The notes under the pieces were generated by a model, which was given only the letters and a program-made list of their open reading frames with translations, was not told where the DNA came from and made no database searches. Shown here piece after piece: positions 16,201 to 62,733 of a stretch of 64,000 nt of DNA (its first letter is position 1; the number at the start of each line of letters is the position of its first letter). The position numbers were made by a program, and so were the translations under genes. The DNA lies in contig JAEILZ010000008.1 in the NCBI GenBank assembly GCA_018873225.1, positions 2,976,001-3,040,000 on the forward strand, in the 5' to 3' direction. This DNA is from [Phialemoniopsis] sp. UDSM-2020 (Eukaryota; Ascomycota; Sordariomycetes; Thyridiales; Thyridiaceae).

Positions 16201-16234
16201 GGCAACGTGGCGGAGTGGTTAACGCGCCAGCCTG

Positions 16235-16282
16235 GTGAGTAAAAATGTACCCCAGTCTTTACCCTTTCTAACACCCTCACAG
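16235..16282 (+). other. spliceosomal-type intron inside the tRNA anticodon (putative)
   Basis: A 48-nt insert between tRNA positions 34 and 35. It starts GTGAGT, has CTAAC at 16268-16272 with the branch A 11 nt before the end, and ends CACAG. These are the same signals as the mRNA introns of neighbouring genes, for example GTGAGT in the CHIP-like and amidase-region genes. Because G flanks both ends, the exact cut could slide by one base without changing the product. Confidence 0.65.
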
Positions 16283-16285
16283 CTA

Positions 16286-16309
16286 GTTCCACCATTCGAT
16301 TGGTCTTCA
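16286..16309 (+). other. canonical tRNA intron, 24 nt
   Basis: Lies between tRNA positions 37 and 38, the standard place cut by the tRNA splicing endonuclease. A short ACCA/TGGT hairpin (16291-16294 with 16301-16304) can form inside. I could not confirm the usual anticodon-intron pair. Confidence 0.65.
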
Positions 16310-16353
16310 AGCTGGTTCCTTCGGGAGCGTGTGTTCGAGTCACACCGTTGTCG

Positions 16354-18272
16354 ATTTCTTCCCTTCTTTGGATATTCTTTTTGCTTCGCAGGGCAAGACA
16401 ATTGGAAGAGATACTTAGTTATATTGAGAGGCTAATGGAAATGACGAAAAATGCCAAGGTCTAGATTGGTTATTGAGATCTGTCCGTGCGAAAACTGTGG
16501 CTGTTCTATTATGTTTCCCCAGAGCATCTGCCATCATCATCTTTCCCATCCCCTCAAAAAAAGGAAAGAGGGCAAAGAGCAGAAGTATGCAAATTGTCCA
16601 ATATATAGGTCTGCCGAATATATTTCCCGGTTGAATTATTTCATGGCCTCAGTTTGGGCTGGGTCAAGGGGGTACCGGGAGACGGGAAAGTGCTTGCATG
16701 ATCGTGGACACGCGAGATACTCGCCGCACCAACTTAGACAACGTTTTTAGGCTTACGATACCGACAGAGCTTATGGATGAGCGGCCGGTACTGTCCCAGC
16801 TATGGGAGAAGAAACGCGTGCAATGGCGTCTCCCGGTATAGATGGCCAGCATGGAAAGATCCTGCAACTTGCCAGCCATGCGAGCCATGTGCACAACCTC
16901 GAAAGAAATCCAAGTGGCAAGTAAGTCGTGTCAAGAATTCGACCGCGATTTACTGTTCATTAGCATGCCAGCCATATCCAGCCCTTTCGTACAGAAATGT
17001 TGATGGGTTACACGGGCAGGACGGGATAGACGTCCCCTGAACATGTTTCAGCAGTATGTTCCAGTCCGGCCTCAGCAAGCCATCCGAAATGCGCACCAGC
17101 TCCTGTCGAGCTGTCTGGATCCCTTCTTAGCTTTCGTGGATCCCTTGCCACCGGAGGATTATTGTGATCCGCTGCACGAAAGGGCTTGGAGCAGTGCAGC
17201 TCATGCAGCCGAGTTGATGCTGGCCGCTATCCCCTTTTACTTCGTAAGAAGTCATCTGGTGAAATACTTTGGACAGGTTCAAGATGTAGACTAGAATAAA
17301 GTGTTACATCCAGGCTTGAGATCTTTTGCGCCCTGCATGTGGTGTTATACAATGTATTGTCCTGCTAAGTTTTCTCCGTGAGGTATGTCCGTGAGTATCC
17401 AAACGCAGTCGTCTATTGATGCAATGGTCAGGATATTCAATTTACTAAGGTATGTCAACTGCCTGTTAATATACTCTGGGCTATATTTGATCTATTGGCA
17501 GCTACTTGAACGCCGCTGCTAATCTCAGATAAGTAGTCGCGTACCGCTTGGTCTTTGTCCCGAGGCGCTGGAACTTTGTTTGCTTCTCCTGAATTCTTCG
17601 GCCTTTCAGTTCCGCATGATCGATCTGCCAAGTATTGGTGGCGGCGCTTTAATCGAGTTAAGCAAACACCGTACATGCAGGAAAAGCAACCTTCGCGGAG
17701 GTGCGGGCTGGCTGTTACACAATGAGGCGACCAATGCTCTTGGATCGGTTTGAGACAATTCCAACGATGCGAGACAGACAGAGCAGACAAGCCGTGTCCC
17801 TGAACAGGAGTACACAAGAGTCGATTAAAAGTTGGGCGGACGTGTTCGTGCGGAATGATGGTGGAAAAGCGGCGCGTGGAGTACCCCTTAAACGTGCGTT
17901 GAAGAGGCAATCCTTTTATATCTCCATCTTCCAATTCCCGCTTTGCTCACTCCGGGACATCTTTGTACCCATTGAGTGCTACTCTTGAACGCAATAGGGC
18001 AAGATACCTCTTTTTCTACTTTCTCACCCTATCAGGTGGTCCAGGCGAGCAAGTATCATCAACGCATCCACACGTTCCGGGCTTTCGGGTACGGTAGCGA
18101 GGAAGCCTTCAAGCACGCCAAAACACCACTGCCGGGCCTTCGGTACGGTCGAGAAGGAACCAGAACCTAGACAGGAATCCCCCTCAAATCTGCGTCTCTC
18201 CTGATCTCGATCTCGACACATTGCAGTAAATCCTCCCGGGCTCCTCTCTTTCTCCTCGTACCTCGACTTTCC
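16354..18272. other. 1.9-kb region without a confident gene
   Basis: T-rich runs (TTTCTT near 16355, TTTTT near 16377-16381) may end the tRNA transcript. One weak spliced candidate exists on the plus strand: 16777-16920 joined to 17041-17291 by a GTAAGT...TTTCAG intron, about 130 aa ending YFGQVQDVD. It has no recognisable domain and I do not claim it as a gene. A 159-aa minus ORF at 17455-17934 looks random. The right end is the promoter of the gene at 18273. Confidence 0.4.
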
Positions 18273-33224: not shown

Positions 33225-35125
33225 TTAGATGCGGCCTCTATCCAAGAACTTCTTCGGAATTTGTACATGCTTCGAACGCAAGTATTCCGCAGCATTCTTT
33301 CCAAGTACATCGTACGTTGAACTTGCAGCAACTCCGCGGTCCAGATGGTCCTTGAGAAGGAAGTGTACAGCTGGAGGTGAATATTAGCAAAAGGGAATTC
33401 AATGAAATATAAGAGTACCTAGAAGAACCTACCGTTAATATTGGGTAGTTCGAAGCGCTCGACTTTGCCGCCGTTATAGTCATTTTGTAAAAGCTGCTTG
33501 ATGAAGCTAACGGAGAGAAGAGTCCGCAGCCACGGGTACTCATCGGCATGCCGGACGTAGAAGCCCACATTGCAATCGGAGCCTTTATCCCCAGATCTTG
33601 CGTGCACTACGTATCCGAGAGGAGCCGTGCAGGTAGGGCCAAAGCTGTTTAGCGACACGGGCTCAGCAGTCTCATCGACTTCCTGCTCGTACAGATACGG
33701 AACCGTTGTTGTTGGTGCAGGGATCTTCTTTGACAAGCTCTTTGATGGAATATGCGCATTGTGATCTAACAAATCCTGCGGGATGATTGTGACGAAATAC
33801 TCATTGAATGGTTTTGGCAGGCCTTGTCGGAAGTCAACGGCGAAAGTGGCACCAGGGTAGGTGCACATGATGATGTTGAAGCATCGATCGAGAAATTTCT
33901 TCTTCGACAGAGCCTCTTCGTCATTGGACTGCGCAAATATTCGGAAGTCTACCGTAGCAGAGTCCTGAGAGCTGGGGTTGGGAGCAGCCGTGCCAGTGGT
34001 TGTGAACTTGAGGAGGGAGAAGGTGTCTGCGTCGAGATATTCGCGGAGCTGGCGCTCAAGCAAGGCTGCCTTCTCCTCAATATCAAGGCCGGTCATGAAA
34101 TAGTGGACCTCGGCCTGATACCCGCCATGTGCAGTGATACCAACTTTTGTCGTTGGTGGTGGTGGCAGGTAGCCAACGTTGTGCACAAGGACCTTGCCCG
34201 GACCAGCGGGTTCGATCTTGATCTGGTCGACGACGGCAACGACGTCGGAGTTATAGTATCTCTTGCCCTGCAGCTCGTAGAGAAGCTGAGACCGGCAAGT
34301 GTCAACCGTGACACCGCCACTTCTTCCGGGCATGTCATGCGCTTCGATCGTGAATATCCCGGTATGATCAACTCGCACAATCGGTAGTTTGAGAATCGAA
34401 CTCGCACCTTGAGGCATCGACTTAAACCCCGTGAAGTTGCCACCAGTGACGTAGTAAGAACACTCGATGAAATGACCAGCGATGAGGCTGTGTGCGAGTT
34501 CTGAAAAGTCTTCCCGTGACCATCCGTGCCAGTAAGCAGCGGCGGCGACCGTGGGTGCTGCGTCAGCCACGCGGCCACAGACGACAATGTCTGCCCCTTC
34601 GCGGAAAGCCTCCACAATCCCCCAGCTTCCAAGATAGCATTGAGCGGCGTATATGGGACTCCTGTCCCAGTCCTTGAAAAGCTGACCAGTAGTGATGTTT
34701 CGGAAGTCGTGACCTTCGGCAGCTAGCTTTTGCACCTGCTGAAGGACCTGGTCGCCGTCAACCCAGGCGACCGTGAGTTTCAGACCGGCCTTGTCAATCA
34801 ACGATCGCAAAACGTCGTGGAGTCTTTCGGTGTCACTTGCTCCAGCATTGACGGCAAGTTTGATACCGCGAGACTCGATGAATGGCAATGCATCTGTGAC
34901 GGAGTCGACGAATTGCTGCTCGAAGGCGTCGACATGTTCATCTTCCGCGCAGCGGTTTGCGACCATCTTGCCCCTTATGGCCATGTTATACTCTGACATC
35001 CAGTCTCCAACAATGAAGTCGACATCACCAGTCTTGGCAAGTTCGAGCAGGTTTTCCGGTCGGTCGGTGATGGCTCCGGATGCCGAACCGATCGACACCG
35101 GTCTTCTGCGGCCAAGAGAGCCCAT
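33225..35125 (-). CDS. AtuA-like (DUF1446) acyclic terpene utilisation family protein
   Basis: Exons 33433-35125 and 33225-33370 with a 62-nt GTAGGT intron give 612 aa. The N-terminal DUF1446/AtuA domain begins RPVSIGSASGAITDRPENLLELAK and includes VNAGASD, ADIVVCGRVADAAPTVAAAAYWHGW and GGNFTGFKS. The C-terminal region ends YVVHARSGDKGSDCNVGFYVRHADEYPWL and, after splicing, AVHFLLKDHLDRGVAASSTYDVLGKNAAEYLRSKH. In Pseudomonas AtuA belongs to citronellol/geraniol breakdown, but its biochemical step is not defined. The ATG at 35125 is preferred over one 15 codons upstream because the family starts with this motif. Divergent from the SDR at 35728, with one cluster motif between them. Confidence 0.88.
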
Positions 35126-60224: not shown

Positions 60225-62733
60225 ATGGAGGAATCGTCGAACGCATCGCCGGATGACCCGGACCCGAAACCCAAGCCGGCACCAGGTACCGGGCCACAGT
60301 CTGGAGCAGGTGCCGAAGCTCCACAAGTCTTCGAAACGCAGGAAGCAAATTCTGCAGCGAAGAAGGAGAAGGCGAGGGTGCGTTTCAACAGCAACGCAGC
60401 AGTGACGGTACCTCCCCCGGTTGTCAAGGCGGTAGCTGGACCTGCCACTGAGGCCCCGAATCCTCCAGTACCGAAACCTATCACGAAGCCGAGACCGTCA
60501 GCTCTACGCAGTAGCTCCGCCAATGCTGTGCCTACCGTGCGGTCCAATTTTGGCCATGAGCCCGACAGTCCGTCTTATGCAGCGGCACAAGAGCGAGCTC
60601 GCGAGATTGCTGCCCAGATACGGGCCGAGTCTCCGTGGGACTCCAAGGCTTCGGTGGGATCGAGTATCCAAACAGGCAGCGACTCTGAGTTCGCGGGGGA
60701 CGACATCCCCCTGAAACAGTTGCACTTTCGCACGGGTTCTGACCAGACTTCACCTGACCCCGAGACTTCTCGCCCCTCCTACCAAACCCATGAGTCCCAG
60801 GAAATTAACGAGGCCCAGAAGATCGTGCAAGCTCATTCCCAACGCTTTGCAGCCAATGCTCAGAGCCCACTTCCGATTCATCAAGCGAAGCCGGAAGATG
60901 ACGAGAATCAAGGGCCGAGCGAGATCAATGATGGATTCATCGACGACATGTACCAAGTCCCTCCACCCGAACACTACCGCGGTAGCATTCTTTCTCAGCT
61001 TTTGAAACTCTACAAGCAGCCGCAGGACATCCGCGGCGAACACCACCAGAGCCGGACTTCCCTTCTACCCCTGATGGGTGAGAGGTCCGGCACCGAGTCT
61101 CGGCCTGAGTCTGGAACGGCCACGCCGAGTCGACGGAAATGGTATGACAAGAATCACTCGCAGGAGACTCTGGCCAACTTAGTCGAGGCGTCGACACGTC
61201 TCGCCAACCCCAACAAGCCAACAGACAGTTCGGCGAGGTCCAGGTCGCCTTTCCATCGGAGAGCTGGCAGCAGTTCTCGCCTTAGTCAATACTGGCAGGG
61301 CGAAGAGGCACGAGTGACGGCACGAATTGCCGAAATGCTATCCCGACAGGACTACCTCATCAAGCTTTGTCGAGCACTGATGTTGTTTGGGGCCCCCACT
61401 CACCGGCTGGAAGAGTACCTACGCATGTCGGCTCGGGTGCTCGAGGTGGCTGGGCAGTTCTTGTATCTGCCGGGGTGTATGATTGTTTCTTTCGACGACA
61501 AGACGTTGCACACGACAGAAGTGCGGATCGTTCGAACGGCGCAGGACATCGACTTGGGGAAACTCAAGGATGTGCACGAGGTCTACAAGGAGGTGATGCA
61601 CGATGTTATCGATGTCGAGGAAGGCATTGAGAAGCTGGACGACCTTCTGAACAAGAAGAACAAATTCGGCCCGTGGACCCGTGTCCTGGCTTTCGGTCTG
61701 ACCAGCGCGACCTGCGGTCCGTTCTCTTTCAAAGCTCGACTTATCGACCTTCCCCTGATCTTCTGCTTTGGCTGTCTTGTGGGAACACTGCAGCTCATCG
61801 TGTCGCCTCGCTCGGCCCTGTACAGCAACGTCTTTGAGGTCACGTCGACAATCATCGTCAGCTTCCTCGCCAGAGCATTCGGCAGTATCAGAGGCGGCAA
61901 CCTCTTTTGCTTCTCGGCTCTAGCTCAAAGCGGGATCGTCATGCTGCTGCCGGGCTATCTCGTCTGTAAGTCGCCATCAGGAGTCCATCCTGGAGATCCA
62001 AACGACAGATAACTAACCTTGACCTATAGTATGTTCTGCCCTCGAGATTCAATCCCACGCAATCGTGCCGGGGTCCATTCGCATGGTGTACGCTGTCATC
62101 TACTCCCTCCTTCTCGGCTTCGGCATCATGGTTGGCGCCGCACTCTACGGCATCTTTGACAGCTCAGCGACCTCGGCTACCACCTGCGAAAACCCCATCC
62201 CGGCATACTACGGCTTCATATTCGTGCCGCTGTTCGCCGTCTGCATCAGTGTCATCTACCAGGCGAAATGGCGCCAGATGCCCGTCATGGTCATCATGGC
62301 TTTCGCTGGCTACATCGTCAACTACTTCAGCGGCATCAAGTTCGTCGCCAGCCCGCAGATCGCGCCGACGCTGGGCGCCCTCGCCGTCGGCCTGCTCGCG
62401 AACCTTTGGTCACGAGTGCGGCACGGCGTCGCTGCCGCCACGCTGATCCCGGCCATCTTTTGCCAGGTGCCTGGTGGGTTGGCGTCTACAGGGGGTCTCC
62501 TCAGCGGCCTGGCGACGGCGGACCAGTTGCGGAACTCGACATTGTCTTCCAACGGGACGGACAGTAACTCGACGACTACCAGTCTGCCAACCACAAGTGC
62601 TGTCAACACAATGGTCTTTGATGTTGCGGCGCGCATGATCCAGATCGCCATGGGTATCTCGGTCGGTCTTTTCATATCTGCATTGCTGATCTGGCCACTC
62701 GGAAAACGCAGGAGTGGTCTCTTCAGCTTCTGA
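60225..62733 (+). CDS. ThrE-type threonine/serine exporter family protein (DUF1212)
   Basis: Exons 60225-61965 and 62030-62733 (intron GTAAGT...CTATAG, 64 nt) give 814 aa. The first 360 residues are Pro/Ser-rich and disordered. Then comes the cytosolic ThrE domain: FLLxx-like RQDYLIKLCRALMLFGAPTHRLEEYLRMSARVLEVAGQFLYLPGCMIVSF and later KKNKFGPWTRVLAFGLTSATCGPFSF. This is followed by about ten membrane segments ending RMIQIAMGISVGLFISALLIWP. Bacterial ThrE exports Thr and Ser; fungal members are thought vacuolar or plasma-membrane carriers without a settled substrate. A loop before the last segment is Asn/Thr/Ser-rich and probably glycosylated. Confidence 0.9.

Follow-up and report, generated by a model that had tools for sequence, protein, structure and literature searches.

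Putative spliceosomal introns in the anticodon region of a tRNA-Ser(GCU) gene and two other tRNA genes of an ascomycete fungus

Introduction

How is a tRNA gene to be read when its body is that of a serine tRNA and its anticodon loop is broken twice? The question arises from a locus of [Phialemoniopsis] sp. UDSM-2020 lying in a 64,000-nt stretch of DNA, C10:2976001–3040000 (hereafter the window, numbered from its first base), in a genome of 44,176,824 bases in 11 contigs. A sequence-only reading had described a tRNA-Ser(GCU) gene there, in which a 48-nt insert of the mRNA intron type splits the anticodon and is followed by a 24-nt intron of the ordinary tRNA kind. In published descriptions, tRNA splicing is treated as independent of the spliceosome (cited part of PMC13149111), non-canonical tRNA introns are listed only for the tRNA endonuclease in the cited part of PMC4090602, and the tRNAscan-SE 2.0 paper contains no word beginning with “spliceosom” (PMC8450103). 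Searches of open-licence full texts turned up no tRNA described as having a spliceosomal intron, and an earlier report elsewhere is possible. Spliceosomal removal of an intron from a Pol III transcript is, on the other hand, in print for U6 of fission yeast (cited part of PMC10484740), the kind of precedent that the sequence-only reading had invoked for fungi.

The window gene and its sister

At the gathering threshold, cmscan finds one RNA family match in the window, a tRNA at 16201–16353 (43.7 bits, E-value 5.6e-6, gathering score 29), in which the cloverleaf is whole and a long insertion lies inside the anticodon loop. The features of the gene are as follows.

16201–16353, plus strand: tRNA-Ser(GCU) gene with two interruptions (Rfam RF00005, 43.7 bits; sister gene on C1)
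16201–16234, plus strand: exon 1, with the 5' strand of the acceptor, the D arm, the 5' strand of the anticodon stem, and C32, U33 and G34
16208–16228, plus strand: region of the A box (internal promoter of Pol III), with the same sequence in the C1 sister gene
16235–16282, plus strand: 48-nt spliceosomal-type intron between G34 and C35, absent from the C1 sister gene
16235–16240, plus strand: 5' splice site GTGAGT (from sequence)
16268–16272, plus strand: branch-site-like CTAAC, branch A to AG 11 nt
16278–16282, plus strand: 3' splice site CACAG (from sequence)
16283–16285, plus strand: exon 2, CTA (C35, U36, A37)
16286–16309, plus strand: ordinary 24-nt tRNA intron between positions 37 and 38, starting with GTT and ending with TTCA, as in the C1 sister
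16310–16353, plus strand: exon 3, running from A38 and the 3' strand of the anticodon stem through the long variable arm and the T arm to the 3' strand of the acceptor and G73
16329–16345, plus strand: T arm with the B box
16378–16382, plus strand: T5 run, possible Pol III terminator (role suggested by sequence)

The A and B boxes are the internal promoter elements of Pol III. After G34 the loop region runs on for 75 nt, namely the 48-nt insert, CUA and the 24-nt insert, the three bases of CUA being exon. Excision of both inserts leaves 81 nt with the loop CUGCUAA, and thus a cloverleaf with a long variable arm, G73 and the anticodon GCU, whereas ARAGORN takes the gene as Thr(GGU) with a single 72-nt intron. 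The sequence and coordinates of the sequence-only reading hold base for base, as does its pairing of the stems (17/17 checked pairs formed, the D and variable arms being outside this count), so the decayed stems of a pseudogene are not seen. The contradiction that it had noted, a serine body with a GGU (Thr) anticodon if a single intron is assumed, is exactly what ARAGORN returns; with introns of 48 and 24 nt the serine body receives a serine anticodon.

The exact extent of the insert is confirmed by an uninterrupted sister gene, C1:2559712–2559835, minus strand, which lacks the 48 nt and retains a 43-nt tRNA intron of the ordinary kind that likewise begins with GTT and ends with TTCA. The sister has CCTG/CTAGTT and the window gene CCTG-(48 nt)-CTAGTT, so that the insert ends are fixed by comparison with the sister and not by motif; as G stands on both sides, the boundary could be shifted by one base, and the signal counts below take this into account. 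In the same alignment the 24-nt insert falls between positions 37 and 38, the place of the canonical tRNA intron, and the 48-nt insert falls elsewhere, at 34/35.

The C1 gene is the only other tRNA-Ser(GCU) found by a genome DNA search, by an A-box pattern allowing 3 mismatches (2 exact places, plus 3 in Ser genes that are CGA or AGA according to ARAGORN, making 5) and by an A-box plus loop pattern with 2 mismatches (2 places in the genome). The search for further tRNA-Ser(GCU) genes that had been advised thus yielded one intact sister, not several; the window gene might be dispensable, yet it makes up half of the known tRNA-Ser(GCU) set.

The two genes differ at 8 of 81 exon bases, which comprise three two-sided compensatory pairs, one one-sided change and one T-loop base, the acceptor-stem differences being at gene positions 5–7 and 74–76; all 17 checked pairs are formed in both. 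Since the acceptor of Ser(AGA), GGCAACA/TGTTGTC, is nearer to that of the window gene than to that of the C1 gene, a large share of these differences may have arisen in the intact C1 copy. Telomere-like repeats (AACCCTAACCCTAA) are located directly 3' of the C1 tRNA-Ser and of a C11 tRNA-Ser(AGA), away from contig ends.

Initiator tRNA-Met and tRNA-Gln(CUG) genes

Two further genes show the same arrangement. An interrupted initiator tRNA-Met(CAU) gene (iMet; C8:1427974–1428096, minus strand) carries a 51-nt GT-AG insert at 33/34 and is read by ARAGORN as Tyr(GUA) with a 51-nt intron; it stands in tandem with a plain gene (C8 1428252–1428323), for which ARAGORN gives Met(CAU). Read by sequence, the C8 gene is an initiator tRNA gene; A1-U72, A54 and the GGG/CCC anticodon stem are marks of initiators. 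Without the 51 nt it has the loop CUCAUAA, and 3 of its 72 bases differ from those of the plain gene (one two-sided pair and one one-sided change), with 17/17 checked pairs formed, plus 4/4 in the D stem. An interrupted tRNA-Gln(CUG) gene (C4:6073465–6073595, minus strand) has a 59-nt GT-AG insert at 34/35 and is Thr(CGU) with a 59-nt intron for ARAGORN, which names the plain gene (C4 6114363–6114436) as Gln(CUG). Its sequence without the 59 nt has the loop UUCUGAU and also differs from that of the plain gene at 3 of 72 bases, none of them in a checked pair, and all 20 checked pairs are formed.

The insert points defined by the sisters are GGGCT/CATAA in iMet and GATTC/TGATT in Gln, and comparison with the sisters leaves no room for slip of the insert ends in either. 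BLAST matches of the plain genes to the genome split at the same places, at query positions 2–32 and 33–72 for iMet and 10–35 and 36–74 for Gln. For iMet and for Gln(CUG) alike, genome DNA searches with the plain genes detect two genes, the plain one and its interrupted counterpart. Neither interrupted gene has an ordinary tRNA intron. Downstream of the interrupted Ser, iMet and Gln genes there are T runs of 5, 7 and 6, respectively.

Removal of the GT-AG segments thus yields GCU for Ser, CAU for iMet and CUG for Gln, while the one-intron ARAGORN reading yields GGU, GUA and CGU. The two-intron reading of the window gene gains its strongest support here, because iMet and Gln(CUG) show the same in the same genome. 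At the level of sequence, the genome appears to carry at least three tRNA genes with an mRNA-type-looking intron in the anticodon region; the Ser observation is confirmed, and its reading is supported and now extends over three genes instead of one.

Splice signals of the inserts

With boundaries taken from the sisters, GTRNGT stands at the exact 5' boundary in all three inserts, and each of the three has CTRAY shortly before its 3' end and ends in YAG. For an estimate of chance, the full signal set (GTRNGT start, CTRAY 5–25 nt before the end, YAG end) was counted in all overlapping segments of the window on both strands. It is present in 2 of 127,900 segments of 48 nt (two placements, the insert itself counted), 1 of 127,895 of 51 nt and 2 of 127,878 of 59 nt (two placements allowed, none needed), that is, at about 1e-5 per insert length, with a joint chance near 2e-15 if the three are independent. 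These rates are not underestimates, as real introns and the Ser insert itself are among the counted segments.

The insert lengths of 48, 51 and 59 nt are typical of candidate introns in the window (47.6–88.2 nt, 5th to 95th percentile), 48 nt being at the short end. There are 38 such candidates, a few overlapping, compared to 17.8 in 60 shuffles (standard deviation 4.9, maximum 35). Two window introns in protein-coding genes, confirmed by homology or Pfam, have the same signals as the tRNA inserts:

33371–33432, minus strand: 62-nt reference intron of an AtuA family gene, GTAGGT..CTAAT..CAG (BLAST scores of homologues)
61966–62029, plus strand: 64-nt reference intron of a ThrE family gene, GTAAGT..CTAAC..TAG (Pfam)

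With the AtuA exons joined, 97 of 120 homologues score higher in BLAST and 23, among them the closest (814 against 815 bits), do not. Joining of the ThrE exons extends the Pfam ThrE match from 1–203 (167 bits) to 1–240 of 241 (228.3 bits) and adds ThrE_2. The AtuA family protein has fungal relatives, the nearest named one being from Melanomma (67%). The absence of T4 runs from the inserts was considered as a possible adaptation to Pol III and is uninformative, as just 4 of the 37 window candidates contain a T4 run, and some 10% of segments drawn at random.

Search for further cases and for intron donors

The tRNA family list of the genome (63 of 930 candidates scored) misses the interrupted iMet gene and so is incomplete; among the tRNA genes listed, none of the eight others of at least 84 nt has splice signals. 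The pattern CTAAY–YAG–B box occurs at 31 places in the genome, below the backward control (52+26); of 30 loci examined out of these 31, only the Gln gene has all signals, and two are ordinary tRNA-Arg genes. A CTGAY version gives 66 places against 95 in the control (strings inspected by eye only). Both patterns leave out GATC B boxes, class II tRNAs with tRNA introns and insertion at other places of the tRNA. In viral and prokaryote collections, pattern scans for the interrupted Ser, iMet and Gln genes gave no match, a result of little weight as these collections contain no fungi.

The genome-wide donor search was made for the Ser insert, and no copy of it is present elsewhere in the genome within 3 mismatches. 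A single mobile intron family (introner) as the source of the inserts was rejected, the likeness between the Ser and iMet inserts being no better than that of shuffles (400 of 500 as good) and the same being true of iMet and Gln (500 of 500). The Ser (16235–16282) and Gln inserts are weakly alike (11 of 500 shuffles as good).

None of the three U6 genes found in the genome has an intron. No 5.8S rRNA match is obtained in the assembly (39 of 1270 candidates scored), and the rDNA array may be missing from it. By its gene content, contig C3 (28,924 bases) is the presumed mitochondrial genome; the first named match of the mitochondrial NAD2 protein is from Pestalotiopsis (83%). Two partial tRNA matches, C6:1465516–1465572 and 1467451–1467507 (model positions 9–63, approximately 31 bits), are inverted and 1.9 kb apart.

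Alternative explanations

The literal ARAGORN reading implies one long ordinary intron in each gene, cut at 37/38 by the tRNA endonuclease, and hence tRNAs with changed anticodons (Ser GGU, iMet GUA, Gln CGU) that mistranslate or are recoded. All three bodies, one of them an initiator, would then have the wrong anticodon, while their sisters show the correct loops, uninterrupted or with an ordinary intron, and the GT-AG ends coincide with the boundaries that the sisters define; we consider this reading extremely unlikely. Little more credit, as still highly unlikely, is given to removal of the inserts at 33/34 and 34/35 by the tRNA endonuclease as non-canonical tRNA introns of the kind known from red algae and nucleomorphs (Cyanidioschyzon and nucleomorphs in the cited part of PMC4090602), which leaves the complete spliceosomal signals unexplained. 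Folding of each arm (one MFE fold, anticodon stem held) gives no clear bulge-helix-bulge at the ends of the three inserts; in the Ser arm, a predicted pairing reaches the insert's 5' splice site.

More weight belongs to the possibility that GT-AG introns, or intron-like DNA, landed in redundant tRNA genes that are now silent or unspliced, the intact sisters doing the work. As each interrupted gene found has an uninterrupted sister, it could indeed be silent, and odd insertions in synonymous genes are usually viewed in this way (cited part of PMC4090602). Still, no pair is broken in the checked stems of the three genes, T runs of 5–7 follow each of them, and three independent inserts with complete splice signals, all at the anticodon, are not expected of random disruption, so that dead copies are an unlikely explanation as well. 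The intact stems and compensatory changes fit selection on structure, without dating the insertions; these changes may have originated in the intact sister, or before insertion.

Proposed processing and origin

We therefore regard the window gene as very probably a working Pol III tRNA-Ser(GCU) gene with a GT-AG, U2-type spliceosomal intron in its anticodon and an ordinary intron at 37/38, with like introns in the iMet and Gln genes. In the proposed pathway, Pol III would transcribe the gene from its internal A and B boxes; the nuclear spliceosome would excise 16235–16282 and join G34 to C35, as the signals and the sister gene suggest; the tRNA splicing endonuclease and a ligase would then remove 16286–16309, whose position is the canonical one and whose ends are shared with the intron of the sister gene; and the product would be a tRNA-Ser with the loop CUGCUAA. 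In budding yeast the tRNA endonuclease is located in the cytoplasm, at the mitochondrial surface (cited part of PMC4090602), and if this fungus is alike, removal by the nuclear spliceosome would precede cleavage by the endonuclease. This order would also avoid a Ser tRNA with a threonine anticodon. For iMet (33/34) and Gln(CUG) (34/35) the spliceosome alone would suffice to restore the anticodon, as there is no ordinary tRNA intron.

Gene duplication probably preceded the arrival of the introns, which perhaps came by reverse splicing into the anticodon loop, an exposed part of the molecule, as could be the case for the Ser insert. All three inserts are at 33/34 or 34/35, and this clustering may reflect reverse splicing into the exposed loop, intolerance of insertion elsewhere, or a restriction of the tRNA finders, which may see inserts at this place alone.

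Comparison with known systems

A close parallel is provided by U6 snRNA genes of fission yeast and other organisms, where a spliceosomal intron likewise resides in a Pol III small RNA gene and is thought to stem from reverse splicing (cited part of PMC10484740). Reverse splicing into U6 is explained by its being a component of the spliceosome, which a tRNA is not; moreover, here three tRNA genes are affected, at the anticodon, and the U6 genes found are intronless. In ascomycetes, the rDNA of lichen fungi holds ectopic short spliceosomal introns, again in structural RNA genes with non-Pol II transcripts (cited parts of PMC8527467 and PMC11889510), and yeast removes one such intron from Pol I transcripts (cited part of PMC8527467). 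Those introns are in Pol I rRNA of a multicopy array, whereas ours are in low-copy tRNA genes, in the anticodon itself.

Among tRNA introns proper, the segment 16286–16309 is a canonical eukaryotic one (37/38, Sen endonuclease), in contrast to the 48-nt insert at 34/35, which carries splice signals and which the sister lacks. Archaea, Cyanidioschyzon and nucleomorphs also have several introns per tRNA, some in non-canonical places, and these are ascribed to the tRNA endonuclease (cited part of PMC4090602), unlike the GT-AG segments with a branch site observed here.

Significance

A practical error is exposed: ARAGORN, a standard tRNA finder, assigns the wrong anticodon to all three genes. If the inserts are spliced, these would be, to our knowledge, the first spliceosomal introns in nuclear tRNA genes, and the Ser gene would encode the first tRNA that needs both splicing machines. 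A tRNA transcript would thereby be shown able to serve as a substrate of the spliceosome, three precise sites would become available for studying intron gain in folded RNA, and the initiator tRNA would be tied to the spliceosome.

A broader proposition is tentative and on balance doubtful. It holds that there is a class of spliceosome-dependent tRNA genes, the initiator tRNA-Met gene included, whose anticodon loops introns keep entering by reverse splicing, with more such genes probably unseen and misnamed by tRNA finders. The tRNA supply of the fungus, and even its capacity for translation initiation, would then be coupled to the activity of the spliceosome, and failed splicing could in principle let the endonuclease make tRNAs with switched anticodons.
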